This document shows, in pieces, positions 33,876 through 63,312 of a DNA stretch of 64,000 bases (its first letter is position 1; each line of letters opens with the position of its first letter). Origin of the DNA: Subtercola vilae (GTDB taxonomy: Bacteria > Actinomycetota > Actinomycetes > Actinomycetales > Microbacteriaceae); assembly GCF_004923255.1 (NCBI RefSeq), contig NZ_QYRT01000001.1:62001-126000 (forward strand), given 5' to 3'. Made by a program: the position numbers and the translations under genes. Under the pieces are notes generated by a model that was given only the letters and a program-made list of their open reading frames with translations, searched no databases and was not told the origin of the DNA.

Positions 33876-33892
33876 TTGACAATCATTATCAA
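33876..33892. promoter_or_regulatory. Zur-box-like palindrome
   Basis: TTGACAATCATTATCAA is a 17-base near-perfect palindrome (one mismatched pair besides the centre), 62 bases before the binding-protein ATG. It matches the known actinobacterial Zur box pattern of TGAAAATCATTTTCA type. The Fur-family gene in the same operon is the expected ligand, giving zinc-dependent self-control. Confidence 0.75.
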
Positions 33893-33954
33893 TAAGCTCT
33901 AGCATCAGAGGGCGCCTTCTTCGCGCAGCCATTCCTCTCACTAGATTGCCCTCA

Positions 33955-34899
33955 ATGCGTCTCACTCGATTCACCACCCTTGCCACGATCACGTCGATTG
34001 CTGCACTCACGTCTCTTGCCCTTTCTGGTTGTTCGACTTCCACCAGTGCCTCAGGCACGGGGGCTACGTCAGGCTCGGCCGGTACGCCGATCGCCATCGT
34101 CGCGTCGACCGACGTGTACGGCGACATCGCCGCCCAGATCGGCGGCGACAAGGTTTCGGTGACCTCGATCATCGACGACCCGTCAAAAGACCCGCACGAG
34201 TATGCCGCCGATGCCCGCAATCAGCTGTCGCTGTCGAAAGCGGCCATCGTCATCGAAAACGGCGCCGGGTACGACGATTTCGTCGACACCATGCTGCAGA
34301 GTGCCAACAACCCGACCGCGAAGGTGCTGAACGCAGCCGACATCTCGGGTTACGACCAAAAGCCGGCCGACGGTGAGTTCAACGAGCACCTCTGGTACGA
34401 CTTCCCCACCGTTCAGAAAGTCGTCGACTCGCTCGCTGCCACCCTTGGTGCTCTCGACGCAGCCGACGCGCCGACCTTCACCGCCAATGCCGATGCCTAC
34501 AAGCAGAAGCTCACCGCTCTCGAGGCCACGGAAGCCGATATGAAGGTATCGTTCGCTGGTCGCGGAGCGGCCATCACCGAGCCTGTGCCGCTCTACATGC
34601 TCCAGGCCATCGGCCTGGTCGACAAGACCCCCGGCGCCTTCAGTACGGCCATCGAGAACGGCACCGATGTGGCGCCCGACGTGCTGGCCAGCACACTCGC
34701 GCTCTTCAGTGACAAGCAGGTGTCGGTGCTCGCGTACAACGAGCAGACCAGCGGCGCGCAGACCGAGGCTGTGCTGAACGCGGCGACCGCAGCGAAGATC
34801 GCTGTTGTGCCAGTGACAGAGACACTGCCGAGCGGCTCGAGCTACATTGGCTGGATGACCGACAACCTGGCCGCGCTGAAGACCGCCCTTTCGCAGTAA
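33955..34899 (+). CDS. znuA: Zinc/manganese ABC importer solute-binding lipoprotein
   Basis: 314 residues. The signal peptide ends in the lipobox LALSGC with Cys26, then a Ser/Thr/Gly-rich tether. The TroA/ZnuA cluster A-I fold is shown by IVASTDVYGDIAAQIGGD, the metal ligand His in DPHEY, a second His in NEHLWYD, and the later TEPVPLYML and YNEQTSG segments. It captures the metal ion outside the membrane for the ZnuBC-like translocator encoded downstream. The Zur-like box in front and the Fur-type gene behind favour zinc over manganese. A TTG nine bases upstream is a weaker start. Confidence 0.87.
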   Translation: MRLTRFTTLATITSIAALTSLALSGCSTSTSASGTGATSGSAGTPIAIVASTDVYGDIAAQIGGDKVSVTSIIDDPSKDPHEYAADARNQLSLSKAAIVIENGAGYDDFVDTMLQSANNPTAKVLNAADISGYDQKPADGEFNEHLWYDFPTVQKVVDSLAATLGALDAADAPTFTANADAYKQKLTALEATEADMKVSFAGRGAAITEPVPLYMLQAIGLVDKTPGAFSTAIENGTDVAPDVLASTLALFSDKQVSVLAYNEQTSGAQTEAVLNAATAAKIAVVPVTETLPSGSSYIGWMTDNLAALKTALSQ

Positions 34900-34909
34900 T
34901 CTTCGCTAG

Positions 34910-35788
34910 ATGACTTCGTTCTCCTCTGCCGCGGCTTCCCCGGGTGTGCCGGCGACGCCCGCGACCGGTGAACCGGTGCTGCAGCTCTCTGGGGCGTCGC
35001 TCACGTTCGGTGCGCGCACGCTCTGGTCGGGCCTTGACCTCACCGTGCGAGCCGGCGAGTTCATCGCCGTCATCGGTGCGAACGGGTCGGGCAAGACCAG
35101 CCTGCTGAAGGTGATTCTGGGCCAGCAGCAGTTGAGCGCCGGTACCGTCGACTTTCTTGGCGAACCCATTCGGCGCGGCAACCGGCGCATCGGCTACATT
35201 CCCCAGCAGAAACTCGCCGATGACGGGGTGCCGCTGCGGGCCCGTGACCTGGTGGGCCTCGGGCTGAGCGGCCACCGGTTCGGGTTGCCTCTGCCATCGG
35301 CAGCTCGCCGCCACCGGGTCGACGAGCTGCTGGCAGCGGTGGGGGCCACGGCGTATGGCAACGTTGCTGTCTCGACGCTCTCGGGTGGCGAGCAGCAACG
35401 CCTTCGGGTGGGGCAGGCGCTCGCGGGCGACCCCCGACTTCTGTTGTGTGATGAGCCTCTCCTTTCACTTGATTTGAATTACCAGCGTGCGGTGAGCGAG
35501 CTCATCGACCAGCAGCGTCGGGCCCGCGATCTGGGGGTGCTTTTCGTCACACACGACATCAACCCCGTGCTCGACATGGTCGACCGCGTGCTCTATCTCG
35601 CGGGAGGGCGCTTTCGCATCGGTACGCCCGACGAAGTGCTGCGCACCGAGGTTCTGAGCGAGCTGTACGGTTCACCCATCGACGTCATCCGTACCAGAGG
35701 GCGAGTGATCGTCGTGGGCGCACCTGACAGCGCCCACGGGCACCACGACGATGTGCGCGGCACCAACACGGGCGGGGCGGCATCGTGA
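34910..35788 (+). CDS. znuC: Zinc/manganese ABC importer ATPase
   Basis: 292 residues. Walker A GANGSGKTS, Q-loop IPQQK, signature LSGGEQQRL, Walker B LLLCDEPLLSLD and H-loop THDINPV are intact. The C-terminal tail contains a His-rich HGHHDD patch, common in metal-importer ATPases and possibly a zinc sensor. The first 20 residues are an Ala/Ser/Pro-rich extension, so translation could start later. The gene lies 10 bases after the binding-protein gene and overlaps the permease start by 4 bases. Confidence 0.9.
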   Translation: MTSFSSAAASPGVPATPATGEPVLQLSGASLTFGARTLWSGLDLTVRAGEFIAVIGANGSGKTSLLKVILGQQQLSAGTVDFLGEPIRRGNRRIGYIPQQKLADDGVPLRARDLVGLGLSGHRFGLPLPSAARRHRVDELLAAVGATAYGNVAVSTLSGGEQQRLRVGQALAGDPRLLLCDEPLLSLDLNYQRAVSELIDQQRRARDLGVLFVTHDINPVLDMVDRVLYLAGGRFRIGTPDEVLRTEVLSELYGSPIDVIRTRGRVIVVGAPDSAHGHHDDVRGTNTGGAAS

Positions 35789-36666
35789 CTGACATCTGGT
35801 CGCAGATCTTCAACTTCGCCAACTACGGCGAACTGCTCGTGCTGCTGCAGAACTCGATCATCGCCGGCGCGGTGCTCGGGCTGGTGGGCGGTCTGATCGG
35901 CGTGTTCGTCATGTCGCGCGACATGGCCTTCGCCGTGCACGGAATCAGCGAGCTCTCGTTCGCCGGGGCCTCAGCAGGCCTGCTGTTCGGCGTGGGGGTC
36001 GTTGAAGGCTCGATCATCGGCTCGATTGTGGCCGCGGCGCTCATTGGCCTGCTCGGCTCACGGGCTCGAGACCGAAACTCGATCATCGCCGTTCTCATGC
36101 CCTTCGGGCTGGGTCTCGGTATTCTCTGCCTCACGCTGTACCCAGGCCGTTCGGCAAACAAGTTCGGGCTGCTCACCGGCCAGATCGTCGCGGTCGACAA
36201 TCCGAGACTCAACTCGCTGATCGCCATCTCGATCGTGGTGGTGATCGGGCTTGCGGTGGTGTGGCGCCCCCTGATGTTCTCAAGTGTCGACGCCGATGTG
36301 GCATCGGCCCGGGGTGTGCCGACACGTTTTCTGTCGTTGTACTTCATGCTGCTGCTGGGGCTCGCCGTCGCAGTCTCGGTGCAGATCGTCGGCTCGCTTC
36401 TGGTGCTCTCGATTCTCGTGACGCCGGCTGCAGCGGCGCTCCGCCTTTCGTCGTCGCCTGTGATCGTGCCGCTTCTCAGCACGATCTTCGCCGTGGTGTC
36501 TCTGGTCGGCGGCATCTTGCTCGCCCTGGGTGGTTCTGTTCCCATCAGCCCGTATGTCACAACGATCTCCTTTTTGATCTACGTTGTCTGCAGAATCATT
36601 GCGTCGCGTCGGAAGCGACAGGGCAATAGTCGCCGAAGCGCGCTGGCTCGCAGGGTTCAGAGCTAA
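35785..36666 (+). CDS. znuB: Zinc/manganese ABC importer permease
   Basis: 293 residues with about eight hydrophobic helices, the ABC-3 metal-permease pattern: NSIIAGAVLGLVGGLIGVF, FAVHGISELSFAGA, and the C-terminal VQIVGSLLVLSILVTPAAAA. A basic C-terminal tail ends the protein. GTG at 35785 overlaps the ATPase stop (GTGA). It forms the membrane channel of the importer. Confidence 0.9.
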   Translation: MTDIWSQIFNFANYGELLVLLQNSIIAGAVLGLVGGLIGVFVMSRDMAFAVHGISELSFAGASAGLLFGVGVVEGSIIGSIVAAALIGLLGSRARDRNSIIAVLMPFGLGLGILCLTLYPGRSANKFGLLTGQIVAVDNPRLNSLIAISIVVVIGLAVVWRPLMFSSVDADVASARGVPTRFLSLYFMLLLGLAVAVSVQIVGSLLVLSILVTPAAAALRLSSSPVIVPLLSTIFAVVSLVGGILLALGGSVPISPYVTTISFLIYVVCRIIASRRKRQGNSRRSALARRVQS

Positions 36667-36733: not shown

Positions 36734-37126
36734 ATGAAACGCAATACGTGGCAGCGTGAAGCCGTGCGTTCCGCCCTCGACACCCAGATGGGCTTCGTGA
36801 GCGCGCAGAACCTGCACTCGAGCCTCCGCGGCGAAGGTTCGCACATCGGCTTGGCGACGGTCTACCGCGCTCTCAGCGACCTGGCAAACGAGGGTGAGGC
36901 CGATTCATTGCAGTCACCCGAAGGCGAGAGCCTGTACCGGGCCTGCTCGGTGGGCCACCACCACCACCTCATCTGCCGCAGCTGCGGCCTCGCGGTCGAG
37001 ATCGAGGCCGACGATGTCGAGGTGTGGGCTAAGAGCGTTGCGAGCCTGCACGGCTTCAGTCAGGCTGAGCATGTCGTCGACATCTTCGGCTACTGCTCGG
37101 CGTGCGTGCCCGAAGTGGCCCGCTGA
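36734..37126 (+). CDS. zur: Fur-family zinc uptake regulator
   Basis: 130 residues. The winged-helix N-terminus has TWQREAVRSALD and GLATVYRALSDLANEG, the Fur DNA-recognition segment. The metal-binding HHHHLICRSCG motif and the two cysteine pairs Cys81/Cys84 and Cys121/Cys124 (structural zinc) are intact. It follows the zinc importer by 67 bases on the same strand, and a Zur-like palindrome precedes the importer. I therefore call it Zur and not Fur, although the sequence alone does not fix the sensed metal. Confidence 0.85.
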   Translation: MKRNTWQREAVRSALDTQMGFVSAQNLHSSLRGEGSHIGLATVYRALSDLANEGEADSLQSPEGESLYRACSVGHHHHLICRSCGLAVEIEADDVEVWAKSVASLHGFSQAEHVVDIFGYCSACVPEVAR

Positions 37127-37170
37127 ACCCATCAGCTGCGAACCCATCAGCTGCGAACCGGTCAGCTGCG
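37126..37170. repeat. Three tandem 15-base units between convergent genes
   Basis: AACCCATCAGCTGCG occurs twice in a row and then as AACCGGTCAGCTGCG. The array runs from the last base of the zur stop codon into the 3' end of the opposite gene, where it alters the last codons. Each unit has a CAGCTG palindrome. Confidence 0.85.
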
Positions 37171-38505
37171 CCGAATCTCGTCGTCGCCCTCGAGGCCTCG
37201 CGACGAGCCGAGAAACATCGACGGCGATGTCGCATCGTCGAATTCGGCCACGTCTCGGTGATGCGCGGCTTCTGCTGACGCCTCGTCGGTTTCGCGTTCA
37301 TCCATCGGTATCAGCTCGATCGTGCCGGTATCGGTTCGGCTCAGGTTGTGACGGGCCAGAATCTCGTCACGCTGGCTGATGAGAAAGTCGCGGTTGGCAG
37401 CGTTCGCGTCGGCGAACATCGTGGATCTACCCGCGGTGATGCGCCGAACGCGACGCCACTCGAGGTACGGCTTGCCCACAGCCATCAGAATCAGGCCTAC
37501 AACTGCGTACGACGCCATCATCGCGATTCCGCGTACGAACCCCGGGCCCACTCCATAGAGTTCCCGTTTGAGCATCTCGGTGATGCCGCTGCCGACAACC
37601 ACGTTGTTCAGCCATGCGAACGGCTCCGGCATGAACCATGACGGGTACGCGGCGCCCGACGATGGCATCGACAAGAAGATGAACACCACCATGGCTGGCA
37701 CGGCGATAAATCGCCCAGCGAAATAACTGGCGCCGTTGACCGCGAGCCCGATGGCGACGATCCAACCCCAGGCAATGAGGAAGAGGGCGCCGAAGTGGCC
37801 GTCGACCGCCCCGATGACGGGGCCGGCAAGGGTGTTGGTGATGAGCGATATCAGCGCTCCGCCCACCACGATCACGGCCATCCGGGTGCGATGCCTGAGA
37901 GGCGCGCCCATCAACCCGATGAACATGGCCACCATGTAGCCGCCGATGCACCACGCGAGCATGAGGTAGAGCGAGACGGTGCCGTACTCGTCGTACGCGG
38001 GCAGCGGGGCGAGGTCGACGATGGTGGGTGTGATCTTCTCGGCCGCGAGCACGGGGCTGATCATGGCCGGGATGAGCGCAGAGACCTGGTACTGGTGGGC
38101 GCTGGCCTTGTAGATGGTCGAATCGCTCGGGTCGAACGCGACCGCAGCCTGCCCGGTGATCACGGCCGCCTTCGCCTCGTCGGCCGTGTCGAACTGGTGG
38201 ATGCTGATGACGCCCGGCATCGCCTTGTCGAGGTCGCTCTGCAACTGCTGACTCGTCGAACCGACCAGGGCAACAGGCACATCATGCGGGTGGGGCGCGT
38301 GGAAGGCGGCTATGTAGCACAGGCAGAACGCCACGATGAAGAAGAGCGGCAACCAGAGTTGCAGACCGATCAGCTGCAACGAGGGGTGAAGTGTGGAGTA
38401 CCAGCGGCGGTACGCGTTCGGCTGGGCCCGACGCGCGGGGTCAGCCGCCCGTGCGGCCCTCGCCTCGAGCCGTGCCGCTGAACGCGAGGTTGCTGTTCGA
38501 CTCAT
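37162..38505 (-). CDS. YhgE/Pip-like (DUF3533) membrane protein
   Basis: 447 residues from the ATG at 38505; a TTG extension to 38532 is less likely. One N-terminal membrane helix (LPLFFIVAFCLCYIAAF) is followed by an extracytoplasmic region with VPVALVGSTSQQLQSDLDKA, then about five further helices. This is the ABC-2-like YhgE/Pip layout. Relatives include phage-infection and type VII secretion accessory proteins and putative exporters. The last 80 residues are a charged cytoplasmic tail. It converges on zur and is unlikely to be part of the zinc operon. Confidence 0.75.
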   Translation of the reverse strand: MSRTATSRSAARLEARAARAADPARRAQPNAYRRWYSTLHPSLQLIGLQLWLPLFFIVAFCLCYIAAFHAPHPHDVPVALVGSTSQQLQSDLDKAMPGVISIHQFDTADEAKAAVITGQAAVAFDPSDSTIYKASAHQYQVSALIPAMISPVLAAEKITPTIVDLAPLPAYDEYGTVSLYLMLAWCIGGYMVAMFIGLMGAPLRHRTRMAVIVVGGALISLITNTLAGPVIGAVDGHFGALFLIAWGWIVAIGLAVNGASYFAGRFIAVPAMVVFIFLSMPSSGAAYPSWFMPEPFAWLNNVVVGSGITEMLKRELYGVGPGFVRGIAMMASYAVVGLILMAVGKPYLEWRRVRRITAGRSTMFADANAANRDFLISQRDEILARHNLSRTDTGTIELIPMDERETDEASAEAAHHRDVAEFDDATSPSMFLGSSRGLEGDDEIRRS

Positions 38506-38636
38506 CACCCAATTGCCTTCCGACACTCTCAAGGCTACTCGGGCCTCCAGAAAGGGTTCAGAATTGGCCTAGAACCGCATGAATCCGGGCCTCGAGTTGC
38601 ATGCTGATGGATGCTCGCGTAGGCTTGGTCGCTGGT

Positions 38637-38655
38637 TGAGTGGTATCTCCGCTCA
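38637..38655 (+). other. Stem-loop in the rpmB leader (first)
   Basis: TGAGTGG and CCGCTCA pair over seven positions (one T-G wobble) around the five-base loop TATCT. It lies about 100 bases upstream of rpmB in a gene-free stretch. Confidence 0.4.
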
Positions 38656-38721
38656 CTTGTACACGAACCCTCCCCTGCACGACTTCTGGGCAAGGTTGCG
38701 TGTGCCGACAAGAGAACTTGG

Positions 38722-38739
38722 GTAGAGCATCCGCTCTAC
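38722..38739 (+). other. Stem-loop in the rpmB leader (second)
   Basis: GTAGAGC and GCTCTAC pair perfectly around the four-base loop ATCC. The stem ends 6 bases before the strong GGAGG ribosome binding site of rpmB, so it could influence translation start. The rest of the gap 38506-38757 shows no gene and no tRNA-like fold. Confidence 0.5.
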
Positions 38740-38757
38740 GGTAATTGGAGGAAAATC

Positions 38758-38994
38758 ATGGCCGCAGTGTGCCAGGTGACAGGAGCCGTTCCCGGCTTCG
38801 GTCACGCTATTTCGCACTCGCACCGACGCACCAAGCGTCGTTTCGACCCGAATGTGCAGAAGAAGACTTACTACGTTCCGTCACTTCGACGTAACGTCAA
38901 CCTGACGCTTTCTGCTAAGGGCATCAAGGTCATCGATGCTCGTGGCATCGAAGCCGTCGTCAAAGAAATTCAGGCTCGTGGGGTGAAGATCTAA
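38758..38994 (+). CDS. rpmB: 50S ribosomal protein L28
   Basis: 78 residues. [25 protein letters not shown] followed by NVQKK and [23 protein letters not shown] is the L28 pattern. Only one cysteine (Cys5) is present, so a four-cysteine zinc ribbon is not possible; this is the zinc-free type. The GGAGGAAAATC before the ATG is a strong ribosome binding site. It shares a 1-base overlap (TAATG) with rpmG and heads the rpmB-rpmG-rpsN operon. Confidence 0.97.
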
Positions 38995-39161
38995 TGGCTA
39001 AAGCACAAGACGTACGCCCGATCATCAAGCTCCGTTCGACCGCCGGTACCGGGTACACGTACGTGACCCGTAAGAACCGTCGTAACGACCCCGACCGTCT
39101 CGTACTGAAGAAGTACGACCCGGTCATCCGCAAGCACGTCGACTTCCGAGAGGAGCGGTAA
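38994..39161 (+). CDS. rpmG: 50S ribosomal protein L33, cysteine-free type
   Basis: 55 residues, the usual length for L33. It starts [20 protein letters not shown] and continues [21 protein letters not shown]. It has no cysteine at all, so it is the non-zinc (C-minus) form. The ATG overlaps the rpmB stop by one base. rpsN follows 3 bases after the stop. Confidence 0.97.
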
Positions 39162-39164
39162 CAC

Positions 39165-39470
39165 ATGGCTAAGACAAGCAAGATCGCTAAAAACGAACAG
39201 CGCAAGGTCATCGTTGCCCGCTGGGCAACAAAGCGCCTCGAGCTCAAGAAGGCGCTCGTTGACATCAACGGCACCGACGAGACGCGTGAAGCGGCTCGCG
39301 TCGGCCTTCAGAAGCTGCCCCGCGATGCTTCGCCGGTGCGCGTGCGCAACCGCGACGCCGTCGACGGCCGCCCGCGCGGTCACCTCTCGAACTTCGGCAT
39401 TTCACGCGTTCGTTTTCGTGAAATGGCTCACCGAGGCGAGTTGCCGGGTATTACGAAGTCAAGCTGGTAG
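39165..39470 (+). CDS. rpsN: 30S ribosomal protein S14, long cysteine-free type
   Basis: 101 residues. [19 protein letters not shown] at the start and [20 protein letters not shown] then [18 protein letters not shown] near the end show the long S14 form. It lacks the CxxC pairs of the short zinc-binding form. It ends the rpmB-rpmG-rpsN operon and is followed by a hairpin at 39496-39519. Confidence 0.97.
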
Positions 39471-40002: not shown

Positions 40003-41961
40003 GTGCCAAAAATGATTCGCATCGCCGGGCCCGCGGCACTTGTCGCAGCCGCCTTTGCCATGCTCATTCTGGGGCTCGAATACGGCGGGGGCGCGACAGC
40101 CCTCCTCCTCGCTGACCCGGGCCCACTGGTTCGGTTCGGGCTGCCCATGGCCACACTCGCTGTGAACCTGAGCGCCTCGCTCGCCATCGGCGCGCTGTTC
40201 CTGGCCGTGTTTGTGCTGCGCTCCTCGAAGCCCGAATTCAATCGTGCCCTCGATATCGCCGCTGCGGGTGCGGCCCTGCTCACGGTGTTCTCGGCCATCA
40301 CCGGCTTTCTCAGCTTTCTGAATGTGACTTCGTCATCAGCGAGCCTCGACTCGAAGTTCGGCCAGATACTCGGGCAGTTTCTCATTGCGGTGCCTCTTGG
40401 CCAGGCGTGGCTCGAGACGACGTTGCTGGCCGCCGCCGTGACTGTGCTCTGCTTCGCCGTTCGAAACGTCACTATGTTGGCCTTCGTGGGTGTTCTCGCG
40501 GTACTCACCCTCGTTCCTATGGCCCAGCAGGGGCACGCCGCCGGCACCGATGGCCACGATGCCGCCATCACGGCGCTGTTCCTGCACATTCTGTTCGCCG
40601 CAGTGTGGCTGGGCGGCCTGCTCGTGCTGGCCCTGCTCTCGAAGCAGCTCGACAACTCGAGGCTTCTCGAGGTGGTGCAGCGGTATTCGGGTGTGGCGTT
40701 GGTCTGTTTCGTTGTGGTCGCGGCCTCGGGTTACGTGAGCGCAGAACTCCGTATCGGATCGCTCGACCGGCTGCTCACTCCCTATGGCATTCTCGTTCTC
40801 GTCAAGGTCACCGCACTCATCGTGTTGGGCCTCATCGGAGCGATGTACCGCAACCTGCTCATCCGGCGCCTGGCAGACGGAGCGGGTCGGCGCATCTTCT
40901 GGCGCATCGTCGTGGTTGAACTCGTCTTCATGGGCGTGGCCTCTGGTACCGCCGTGGCACTGGCACGCACCGCCACTCCCATCCCCGAGGTGCTACCGAG
41001 TACGCCGACGCCGGCGCAGATTCTCACGGGCTCGGCAGTGCCACCCGAACTGACCTTCGGCAACTTCTTCACGCAGTGGAACTTCGATCTGCTGTGGATT
41101 CTCGTCTGCGGGTTCGGCATCTTCTTCTACCTTGCCGGCGTGGTGCGGCTTCGTCGCCGCGGTGATAGCTGGCCCATCCACCGCACCATTCTGTGGGTTG
41201 CCGGCATGCTGTTGCTGCTCTTCGTCACCAACGGTTTCATGAACGTGTACGAGAAGTACCTGTTCAGCGTGCACATGATGGGCCACATGATTCTGGCCAT
41301 GATGATTCCCATCCTGCTCGTGTCGGCGGGCCCGGTCACCCTCGCCATGCGTGCCATCAACAAGCGCAGCGATGGCAGCCGTGGAGGCCGCGAGTGGATC
41401 CTGTTGGCCGTGCACTCTCGCATCGGCAACTTTCTCTCCAACCCCATCGTGGCGGGGGTGCTCTTCGCGACCAGCCTGCTGACGTTCTACTACACACCCC
41501 TCTTTCGCTGGGCCACGGTCGATCACATCGGTCACGAGTGGATGATCGTGCACTTCTTGATCGTGGGTTACCTGTTTGCGCAGGCGCTCATCGGCGTCGA
41601 CCCCGTCGCCTTCACGTTGCCGTATCCGTTCCGCCTCGTGTTGCTGCTCGCAACCATGGCCTTTCACGCCTTCTTCGGCCTGACGCTCATGACGGGCACC
41701 GGCCTGCTGCTCGCCGACTGGTATGGCGCCATGGGCCGGGCCTGGGGTACCAGTGCGATCTCAGACCAACAGACCGGCGGCGGCATTGCGTGGAGCATCG
41801 GTGAGATTCCCACCCTTATCCTTGCAATCGTGGTGGCAATCCAGTGGGGTCGAAGTGACACGAAAGAGACGAAGCGTCTCGATCGCAATGCCGACCGTAC
41901 GCATGATGCCGAGCTGAACGAGTACAACGCCATGCTTGAGCGGCTGGATCGCACCCGATGA
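40003..41961 (+). CDS. Copper-handling CopD domain fused to CtaG cytochrome oxidase assembly domain
   Basis: 652 residues, nearly all membrane helices. It starts at GTG 40003, or at ATG 40012. The CopD-like half includes YSGVALVCFVVVAASGYVSAE cut before LRIGS (from about residue 228) and GILVLVKVTALIVLGLIGA. The CtaG (caa3-type assembly) half begins near residue 350 with FGNFFTQWNFDLLWIL and contains FSVHMMGHMILAMM, with the histidines likely to carry copper. Such fusions are common in Actinobacteria and serve copper delivery to cytochrome c oxidase. The helicase gene overlaps its stop by 4 bases. Confidence 0.9.
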   Translation: MPKMIRIAGPAALVAAAFAMLILGLEYGGGATALLLADPGPLVRFGLPMATLAVNLSASLAIGALFLAVFVLRSSKPEFNRALDIAAAGAALLTVFSAITGFLSFLNVTSSSASLDSKFGQILGQFLIAVPLGQAWLETTLLAAAVTVLCFAVRNVTMLAFVGVLAVLTLVPMAQQGHAAGTDGHDAAITALFLHILFAAVWLGGLLVLALLSKQLDNSRLLEVVQRYSGVALVCFVVVAASGYVSAELRIGSLDRLLTPYGILVLVKVTALIVLGLIGAMYRNLLIRRLADGAGRRIFWRIVVVELVFMGVASGTAVALARTATPIPEVLPSTPTPAQILTGSAVPPELTFGNFFTQWNFDLLWILVCGFGIFFYLAGVVRLRRRGDSWPIHRTILWVAGMLLLLFVTNGFMNVYEKYLFSVHMMGHMILAMMIPILLVSAGPVTLAMRAINKRSDGSRGGREWILLAVHSRIGNFLSNPIVAGVLFATSLLTFYYTPLFRWATVDHIGHEWMIVHFLIVGYLFAQALIGVDPVAFTLPYPFRLVLLLATMAFHAFFGLTLMTGTGLLLADWYGAMGRAWGTSAISDQQTGGGIAWSIGEIPTLILAIVVAIQWGRSDTKETKRLDRNADRTHDAELNEYNAMLERLDRTR

Positions 41962-61855: not shown

Positions 61856-63312
61856 CACCACCAGCCCGGTCGCTGGGCCTTGGCGGCGAGCCCGAGGTTG
61901 ACGTACGCCACGTTCGACTGGGAGGTGGTGCCCGGGCTGAGGTAGCCGCGGTCGTCGCTCGACGAAGCGGTGGTCAGATCGTGCACCGTGGTCGAGCTCG
62001 TGGCGACGCCTCCCGCGCTGCCCGAATCGGCACTCAGCACGTCGGCGCCGTAGAACAGCGAGGTGGGCGACTCGCGCCCCGAGCCGAGCGTGCCGATGGC
62101 CGCGAACGGAATCTTCTCGTCGGCCTGCATGGCGTACACGCTACCGCCGGGCACGTGGATCGACCCGGCCCCGGCGAAAGTCGGTGCCACACCCGCGGAG
62201 CCGACGGTGGTGAACGAGTCGACGACGCCCGGCCGAATGTCGGTGAGGGCCACGGCGGCGGTGGTGGAGCCGTACGAATGCCCGACGACGCTGAGGCGCG
62301 AGGAGTCGCTGCCCCGGCCATCCTGCGCGTTCAGCGTCGCGTCGTACCCGAGCAGCGCTTTCTCGAGCCGCGAACCGCCAAGGTTGGCCGAGTCGTTCGC
62401 CAATACGGCGAGGTCTTTGTTGTCGACGGAGGGCACTTCTGGTGAGTCGTAGTTCATCCACGCCACAACGGCGATCTGTTTCGAGAGACCGTTGCTGATG
62501 GCGTCGCGATGCTCCTGCTGCCACAGGTCGCGCGCCGCGCCGGTGAGACCGGTGGGCGTGCCGGCGCTGTTGCTGCCCATGCCGGGGATGACGAATGATG
62601 CGTACTTCGCCTTGTCGAGGTCGCCGACAGAGATCGCGGCGAGTGGCGGCGGCCCCGAGGTGACACTGATCAGCTGGTACGGAGGGTCGACCTGCCCTTT
62701 CAGCGACTTCTCGACCGACTCGAGGTATTTCAGAGTGGTCGTGTCACCGGACGCCTTCGCGGCTGCGATGCCGGTGTCGAGCACGGCGCGGTTGGCCACG
62801 TCGCGGTCAGCGTAGCGCACCCCTTCGAGTGAGCCGACGAGCTGTGGATGCTCGAGGCGAAGCTCTTTCTGCTCGGCCGCGGTCAGCCCGGCCCACCACT
62901 TCGCCACGGCCTTCGGGTCGGCGTTATTGTCGGCCGCGTACGACTCGAGCCGGGCCTCGGCCGCGGCACTGGCGGAGTCGCTGCCGCGGGCTGCCGTACC
63001 TGTCACGCCCGTACCCCCAGCCCCGCCTGCGCCGCCCCCGTCGTTCGTGCTGGTGCGTTGCTGCTCGTCGGCTTGGCGCGCGAGCTCGGTCGAGCGCTGT
63101 TCGAGGGAACGCGCGGCCGCGGTGATGCTGCCGCGGTAGGTGGAGTGCCAGTGCGAGACGAACTGTTGGGCATCCGGGCCCTGCCACCGGCTCACCGCCA
63201 CAAGGGCGGTGAGCTGCGATTCGGCGCTGCCGAGGTTCTGGCTTGCCGCGCTCATGTGCTTGGCGAGTTCTCGCAGCTGGTCGACATCGGCGCCCACGAA
63301 CCCTTCGGCCAT
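61855..63312 (-). CDS. WXG-like and DUF1023 alpha/beta hydrolase
   Basis: 485 residues from ATG 63312. The N-terminal 90 residues form a helix pair with a W-x-G-type turn (VSRWQGPDAQQFVSHW), like WXG100 proteins, which are type VII secretion substrates. After a Gly/Ser/Ala linker, the C-terminal DUF1023 domain has VIPGMGSNSAGT and the nucleophile elbow VVGHSYGSTTAA, followed by GVAPTFAGAG and a late His. Family members are probable secreted or surface esterases or peptidases. The downstream lipoprotein overlaps by one base pattern. No ESX genes are in the window. Confidence 0.85.
   Translation of the reverse strand: MAEGFVGADVDQLRELAKHMSAASQNLGSAESQLTALVAVSRWQGPDAQQFVSHWHSTYRGSITAAARSLEQRSTELARQADEQQRTSTNDGGGAGGAGGTGVTGTAARGSDSASAAAEARLESYAADNNADPKAVAKWWAGLTAAEQKELRLEHPQLVGSLEGVRYADRDVANRAVLDTGIAAAKASGDTTTLKYLESVEKSLKGQVDPPYQLISVTSGPPPLAAISVGDLDKAKYASFVIPGMGSNSAGTPTGLTGAARDLWQQEHRDAISNGLSKQIAVVAWMNYDSPEVPSVDNKDLAVLANDSANLGGSRLEKALLGYDATLNAQDGRGSDSSRLSVVGHSYGSTTAAVALTDIRPGVVDSFTTVGSAGVAPTFAGAGSIHVPGGSVYAMQADEKIPFAAIGTLGSGRESPTSLFYGADVLSADSGSAGGVATSSTTVHDLTTASSSDDRGYLSPGTTSQSNVAYVNLGLAAKAQRPGWW

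Follow-up and report, generated by a model that had tools for sequence, protein, structure and literature searches.

The locus analysed here raises the question of whether the genes of three ribosomal proteins that need no zinc, located near the genes of a zinc transporter, are a backup of the ribosome or its ordinary supply, and of what controls them. The locus lies in a window, i.e., the whole stretch of DNA that was analysed, of 64,000 nucleotides from positions 62001–126000 of a contig of Subtercola vilae. All on the forward strand, rpmB (38758–38994) encodes an L28 of 78 amino acids, rpmG (38994–39161) an L33 of 55 amino acids and rpsN (39165–39470) a long S14 of 101 amino acids, and the extent that had been given for the three genes in the initial annotation, 38758–39470, is correct. 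The annotation had described the whole trio as cysteine-free, which is borne out for L33 and S14, both without any Cys, but not for L28, which has one Cys, at position 5, with no CxxC pair. In the six zinc-type L28 that were read, all from the order but outside the family, there are four Cys in two CxxC pairs. With the NCBIfam models, the L33 passes the cut-off of NF001860 but not that of NF001764, and the S14, which is 98% identical to that of Subtercola lobariae and 97% to that of S. boreus, passes that of NF006477 but not that of the type-Z NF005974. The L28, L33 and S14 here are zinc-free (C-) ribosomal proteins, without the CxxC pairs of zinc ligands. The genes are clustered, with the Cys counts of 1, 0 and 0 for L28, L33 and S14, in 79 of the 80 loci of the family Microbacteriaceae that were fetched (from 79 genomes, about one per genus); the exception, L195, is the locus of a zinc-type L28 with four Cys.

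The other zinc-ribbon families of the genome have a similar character. L31, S18 and L32 have one match each, with no Cys in what was read, and S4 has one match, with no Cys in the first 90 letters of the frame that was read, so that seven of the eight families appear zinc-free. A wholly zinc-free ribosome is rejected all the same, because L36, the exception, is present in a single copy that keeps its set of Cys/His zinc ligands.

Whether the three genes are possibly the only copies, as had been proposed, can be read from the gene content of the genome (4.04 Mb in 103 contigs, with completeness rated 100%), and the gene content agrees with the proposal: L33, L28 and S14 have one match each, with 41 of the 64 first-look candidates scored for S14, and within the same scope the search for zinc-binding paralogues elsewhere in the genome found none. 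The survey was extended for L28 and S14 to 149 Microbacteriaceae genomes of 76 genera, this one included, while that of L33 covers this genome and the fetched loci. A single L28 match is present in 148 of the 149 genomes, and two are present in G100, a genome rated 5% contaminated, where a C- cluster (L194) is accompanied by the second, four-Cys L28 of L195. For S14, where in many genomes 41 candidates were scored, the match is likewise single in 148 of 149 genomes and one full S14 is present in all 149, the additional match, in G009, being 23 positions long. In the class, type-Z S14 scores above the cut-off in 226 of 246 genomes; the 20 that fail, which were identified from their E-values since the passes are listed in part, are 13 members of the family, two genomes of family f6 (G160 and G395), one of family f8 (G340) and four matchless genomes. 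We thus take rpmB-rpmG-rpsN as a housekeeping operon that alone supplies L28, L33 and S14 in this genome and, within the reach of the survey, in the Microbacteriaceae.

We now consider the neighbourhood of the operon. On the forward strand upstream of it are located the genes of a znuA-like zinc ABC substrate-binding lipoprotein (33946–34899, AztC/MntC-like), a znuC-like ATPase (34910–35788), a znuB-like permease (35785–36666) and a Fur-family regulator (36734–37126), which is called zur because it is placed after znuACB; the names of the transporter and of zur rest on weak family matches below the curated cut-offs and on gene order. The operon had been described as lying beside zur and znuABC, and it is indeed near them, but zur and rpmB are separated by an opposite-strand gene (37162–38532) of a 456-residue protein with no NCBIfam match, which from a reading of its sequence may be a membrane protein. 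Among the 80 family loci, this gene is matched only in three of the same genus (L123, L191 and L192). The gene order is therefore znuA, znuC, znuB, zur, the opposite-strand gene, rpmB-rpmG-rpsN and HU. Downstream of HU is a gene of a 652-residue protein (40003–41961, forward strand) with a CopD-like and a CtaG-like half, which recurs often near the operon of relatives. In 64 of the 80 family loci, a zur gene precedes rpmB in the same orientation at a distance of at most 9 kb (at most 1 kb in 43), so that the zinc-regulon neighbourhood is widely shared.

In this neighbourhood, the Zur box is present at znuA and absent at rpmB. Before znuA, the site TGACAATCATTATCA (33877–33891, forward strand) has no mismatch to TGANAATNATTNTCA, and the whole window has three matches with at most 3 mismatches, two of which are this site on both strands, with a mean of 0.25 expected by chance. 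Among 58 loci with a znuA match, the window included, the best site near the znuA start has 0, 1, 2 or 3 mismatches in 26, 12, 17 and 3 loci, respectively. By contrast, the best site in the 300 nt upstream of rpmB in the window has 6 mismatches to TGANAATNATTNTCA, and the statement that no Zur-like palindrome precedes rpmB is confirmed. Over 81 loci, the best site in the 300 nt before rpmB has 2, 3, 4, 5 or 6 mismatches in 1, 1, 11, 32 and 36 loci, respectively; the site with 2 mismatches, at −183, belongs to L162, and the other 79 of the 80 fetched family loci have at least 3. In two-copy genomes of the order outside the Microbacteriaceae, a box with 0–2 mismatches is present at −25 to −97 before the C- rpmB in 10 of 11 loci (L323, L330–L337 and L240; the exception, L241, has 4 mismatches), and all six loci of the zinc-type rpmB have at least 3 mismatches (3 at best), these 17 loci having been picked by hand from the order list and not at random. 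One of these two-copy genomes (G157, with L323) has a 1-mismatch Zur box on its zinc-free rpmB cluster and genes of zinc-free L31 and L36 within about 1.2 kb. In the 1.5-kb flanks of the genes of L31, L36, S18, L32 and S4 in the S. vilae genome, the best Zur-like sites have 3–4 mismatches, and they are not accepted as real Zur sites.

Because the copies are sole, because a Zur box precedes znuA but not rpmB and because a box is found in 10 of the 11 C- loci of two-copy genomes, the overall reading of the initial annotation, that zinc-free ribosomal proteins are used here at all times, is supported, with the corrections that L28 has one Cys, that L36 keeps its zinc ligands and that in E. coli, too, the only forms of L28, L33, S14 and S18 are usually C-. 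Judged from the sequence, with no Zur box before rpmB and no zinc-type paralogue found, the operon is not a Zur-regulated alternative operon. An opposite reading would be that it is still a Zur-repressed backup, with the zinc-type copies missed in an assembly of 103 contigs and among S14 candidates of which 41 of 64 were scored. Its location near znuACB-zur would fit, and so would a prediction for Leifsonia xyli, which we take to belong to the same family, Microbacteriaceae. In the part consulted of a computational study of 2010 (PMC2823685), Zur regulons are predicted in actinobacteria that include ribosomal paralogues in several species, L. xyli among them; the paralogues are given by species, and that part does not state whether rpmB is meant for L. 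xyli. Against this reading, besides the missing box before rpmB, are the single L28 in 148 of 149 family genomes and the type-Z S14, which is found above cut-off in most of the class while 13 members of the family fail. We thus regard it as largely refuted and as hardly tenable.

We now turn to the region before rpmB. A candidate of a sigma-70-like promoter is seen on the forward strand at 38597–38625, with a −35-like TTGCAT (38597–38602) and, after a spacer of 17 nt, a −10-like TAGGCT (38620–38625). Among 77 leaders that bear the conserved core described below, TAnnnT occurs 60–145 nt before the core in 72, and TTG occurs a further 15–19 nt upstream of TAnnnT in 56, with the best candidate taken and with no shuffled control for either count. 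The strong ribosome binding site that had been noted is present, as the Shine-Dalgarno sequence GGAGG (38747–38751, forward strand), 6 nt before the ATG of rpmB. From the missing Zur box and the sigma-70-like promoter site, the operon is probably constitutive.

Between the promoter-like site and rpmB, there is a stretch on the forward strand (38632–38757, with the start inferred from the −10) that is predicted to be a structured leader RNA of rpmB-rpmG-rpsN and that was absent from the initial annotation, as was its hairpin P3. The conserved core of the leader (38703–38744), which is near-invariant, has the form NGCCGACAAG-NNAN-CTTGG-P3-GGTAN and was made into model R1. It contains P2, CAAG-AGAA-CTTG (38709–38720), and P3, a perfect hairpin GTAGAGC-ATCC-GCTCTAC (38722–38739) whose sequence varies among the genomes with compensation. 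The family shares upstream of rpmB the pattern NGCCGA-CAAG-NNAN-CTTG-G-(stem, loop, stem)-GGTA: by pattern search, its first half is found in 76 of the 80 fetched loci and in the window, i.e., in 77 of 81, and in 76 of these 77 leaders (the exception being L150) the stem ends directly at GGTA. The core is missing in three loci of small genomes (L125, L127 and L129) and in the zinc-type copy, L195. In 73 of 76 leaders, GGTA is located 11–20 nt before the ATG, a location that would suit translational control.

The pairing of P3 was examined in an alignment, A1, of 34 leaders including that of the window, all with a P3 of a 7-bp stem and a 4-nt loop; the remaining 43 of the 77 have a different layout and were therefore not included. 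In A1, where P2 is invariant, all of the 341 cells pair, with 100% of the P3 cells paired, and six of the seven P3 pairs are changed on both sides. There are 55 doubly changed cells, as compared with a mean of 15.8 in shuffled alignments, and structures slid along the alignment pair in 34–52%. The covariation score of A1 is reached by none of 500 shuffles, which ignore relatedness; by weaker measures, 10 of 500 shuffles reach the number of pairs changed on both sides and 39 of 500 that of further pair types. Outside A1's invariance, P2 has one compensated change, CATG/CATG in L132.

As P2 is also a palindrome of DNA and invariant in A1, it could be argued that CAAG-N4-CTTG is the operator of some repressor, with the covarying P3 a separate hairpin. 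This is very improbable: in the window, P2 is located 84 nt downstream of the −10, its variant in L132 is compensated, and a fixed linker ties it to P3.

Upstream of the core, two further helices are seen in the leader. The first is a hairpin, H1, TGAGTGG-TATCT-CCGCTCA (38637–38655), and the second is helix B, in which the 5' strand GTACACG (38659–38665) pairs with the 3' strand CGTGTGC (38699–38705), all on the forward strand. In a second alignment, of 34 leaders picked by hand for like layout and with shuffles that ignore relatedness, H1 has 235 of 267 cells paired (88%, with 37 doubly changed; shuffled mean 200), B has 193 of 204 (95%; 166) and P3 has 232 of 238 (189). Over all the 77 leaders, helix B of 6 bp can form in 59, whereas 200 runs with the strands swapped between genomes gave 30.1 on average and 38 at most; one of 7 bp can form in 38, against 12.7. 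In an 80-nt region, a hairpin of at least 6 bp at the place of H1 is present in 75 of 77 leaders (mean 49.5 and maximum 53 in 20 shuffles) and one of 7 bp in 57 (25.8 when shuffled), while one of 5 bp, present in all 77 leaders and, after shuffling, in 72.2 on average and 75 at most, scarcely discriminates. The conserved structure of the leader is thus backed by covariation in three helices, H1, B and P3.

Other elements of structure fared less well. A helix P0 inside helix B is unsupported, with 60 of 99 cells paired against a shuffled mean of 59, and a closing helix P1 (GUYG/UUGG with CGAC/CCGA), which the predicted fold of the window leader shows, is not claimed because there is little variation on its 3' side, while its 5' side would begin ahead of the inferred start of the transcript. 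The fold of the single window leader is mildly better than that of shuffles (z −2.0), with 8 of 200 shuffles folding as well and with P2 not formed, and the 3' piece of the leader together with the start of rpmB folds no better than shuffles (z −0.4). An anti-Shine-Dalgarno CTCC upstream of the core occurs in 47 of 77 leaders (mean 35.0 and maximum 44 of 100 shuffles), which is a weak lead; the longer motifs TCTCC, CCTCC, CTTCC and CTCCT are within the shuffled range.

With strict filters, 24 of the 394 genomes of the class have a site of model R1, one each. All the 24 are Microbacteriaceae, and in all of them the core is located directly before rpmB, at 47–54 nt as counted from CAAG. The 20 among those listed of the non-matching genomes belong to other families, and there are 350 further non-matching ones. 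A set of 80 named loci was fetched through S14, and 69 of them have the element. The 11 misses are L275 and L321, in which the rpmB side is cut by the contig end, seven loci (L302, L307, L308, L313, L315, L319 and L320) of Citricoccus, Glutamicibacter, Micrococcus and Rothia, which presumably are all Micrococcaceae, and two loci from MAGs (L303 and L306) that lack the core and have another upstream sequence in common. These two loci and L125, the small-genome member of the family that also lacks the core, have CGCCTAAACTTGAG.AGTTGC.TA in common before rpmB.

Other conserved sequences are found upstream of zinc-free rpmB in other families. The Micrococcaceae-type loci (L222–L230 and the seven just listed) have a different one, in most of them a hairpin that surrounds UCUCACC, plus a block resembling GGUGGCGGGAC, and family f8 (L231–L239), whose L28 is likewise single and zinc-free, shows a third upstream type, with GUUGAUGUCUUCCGACAUCGGCGCAAG and UCGGUAACUUGUGAACUGGAGGAG in common to five of its nine loci (L232, L233, L237, L238 and L239). 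In the Micrococcaceae-like family f6, L28 is single and zinc-free in all nine genomes. In the 18 loci of these two single-copy families, f6 and f8, the best Zur site in 250 nt has 3–6 mismatches, with 3 in L222 and L223.

That the leader consistently precedes ribosomal-protein genes agrees with what is required of a leader of ribosomal proteins (r-leader). No match of the leader at the gathering score was found in Rfam 15, the one match, at E 6.4, being far below its gathering score, and neither Rfam 15 nor the open-access literature searched gave a feedback element or leader for rpmB-rpmG-rpsN; in the parts consulted of PMC2864571, PMC12422013 and PMC8470358, there is nothing on an rpmB leader. 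An element that is complex, conserved and present once per genome, before an operon near the zinc regulon, might be supposed to bind a metabolite, a metal ion, an alarmone or a small RNA, i.e., to sense the demand for ribosomes, or zinc, in the manner of a riboswitch. For a metabolite sensor, however, other genes would be expected, while the element precedes one ribosomal-protein operon only, and the match in Rfam is absent; we therefore consider this supposition improbable.

By analogy with r-leaders, the function of the leader is most likely autoregulatory feedback by L28, L33 or S14, and we hold it to be rather probable that in this sole-copy operon the control by Zur has been replaced by such a leader. 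The sequence of events would be as follows. The zinc-free operon would once have been a Zur-repressed backup, as it apparently still is in the two-copy relatives; with the loss of the zinc-type copies, the Zur operator would have been lost too, and control would then have moved to the level of the mRNA. There, L28, L33 or S14 that is free, in excess over rRNA, would bind the core of the leader, and this binding would block the translation of the whole operon in an autogenous feedback.

If one of these proteins binds the core, a site mimicked by the core might be expected in the rRNA. When the core was searched against the 23S and the partial 16S of the genome, the best matches had E of 0.55–1.3. 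The 23S has a single CAAG-NNAN-CTTG (L242, 4356–4367), with a model E of 1.1, which we take to correspond to about 2334–2345 of E. coli. It was dropped as the mimicked site because by this numbering it is in a long-range helix and not in a hairpin. That no convincing mimic was seen in the 23S and the partial 16S is in favour of another reading, according to which the leader is structured and not autoregulatory, setting the stability of the mRNA, the start of the transcript or the efficiency of a constitutive translation; that the copies are sole and probably constitutive, behind a promoter-like site found family-wide, would also fit. In contrast, the near-invariant GCCGA, NNAN and GGTA, around stems that change freely, resemble a recognition site, and we consider the non-autoregulatory reading rather unlikely, the autoregulatory feedback being retained as the most likely function of the leader.

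It may be, though we are inclined to doubt it somewhat, that the same has happened in every family of the order that lost the zinc-type copies: the backup would have become the housekeeping operon and gained its own, structurally unrelated autoregulatory leader. The Microbacteriaceae have one leader, and f6 and f8, with nine loci each, have other conserved upstream sequences. If this hand-over is true, the leader of Microbacteriaceae would be, to our knowledge, the first r-leader of any of the proteins L28, L33 and S14. The families of the order would then provide a natural before-and-after series of the conversion of a stress-backup operon into a housekeeping one, with the zinc box in the two-copy families and a structured leader in the single-copy ones. 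The leader is in any case a concrete, testable candidate for an operon that lacks a feedback element in Rfam or in the open-access papers searched.

Finally, we compare the locus with known systems. Among r-leaders are the 20 new ones of Eckert and Weinberg 2020 (PMC7247131), a paper in which, in the part consulted, rpmB and rpmG each appear a single time, in the title of a reference, while rpsN does not appear. The present leader is like r-leaders in having a covariation-backed structure upstream of ribosomal-protein genes in one lineage and unlike them in having no Rfam match, and it is a putative member of the class. As for the sole C- proteins of E. coli mentioned above, they are likewise zinc-free at all times; here, unlike in E. 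coli, rpsN is in the cluster, a conserved leader is in front, and the C- type extends, in the sequence read, to L31, L32 and S4. For the rpmB-rpmG operon of E. coli, the part consulted of PMC10931766 reports no response to its own products, which counts against feedback here. Alternative ribosomal proteins and paralogues are treated in PMC5912738 and PMC3353972, and the surroundings of L28 and L33 in PMC13372681 and PMC8987054, as far as the parts consulted go. With the Zur-controlled alternative ribosomal proteins of mycobacteria, encoded there by the altRP operon, and of Streptomyces, the present operon has in common that the C- genes of L28, L33 and S14 are together and, as in related actinobacteria, within or near the zinc regulon. 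The difference is that here they are the sole copies, with no Zur box, with a promoter-like site of their own and with a structured leader.
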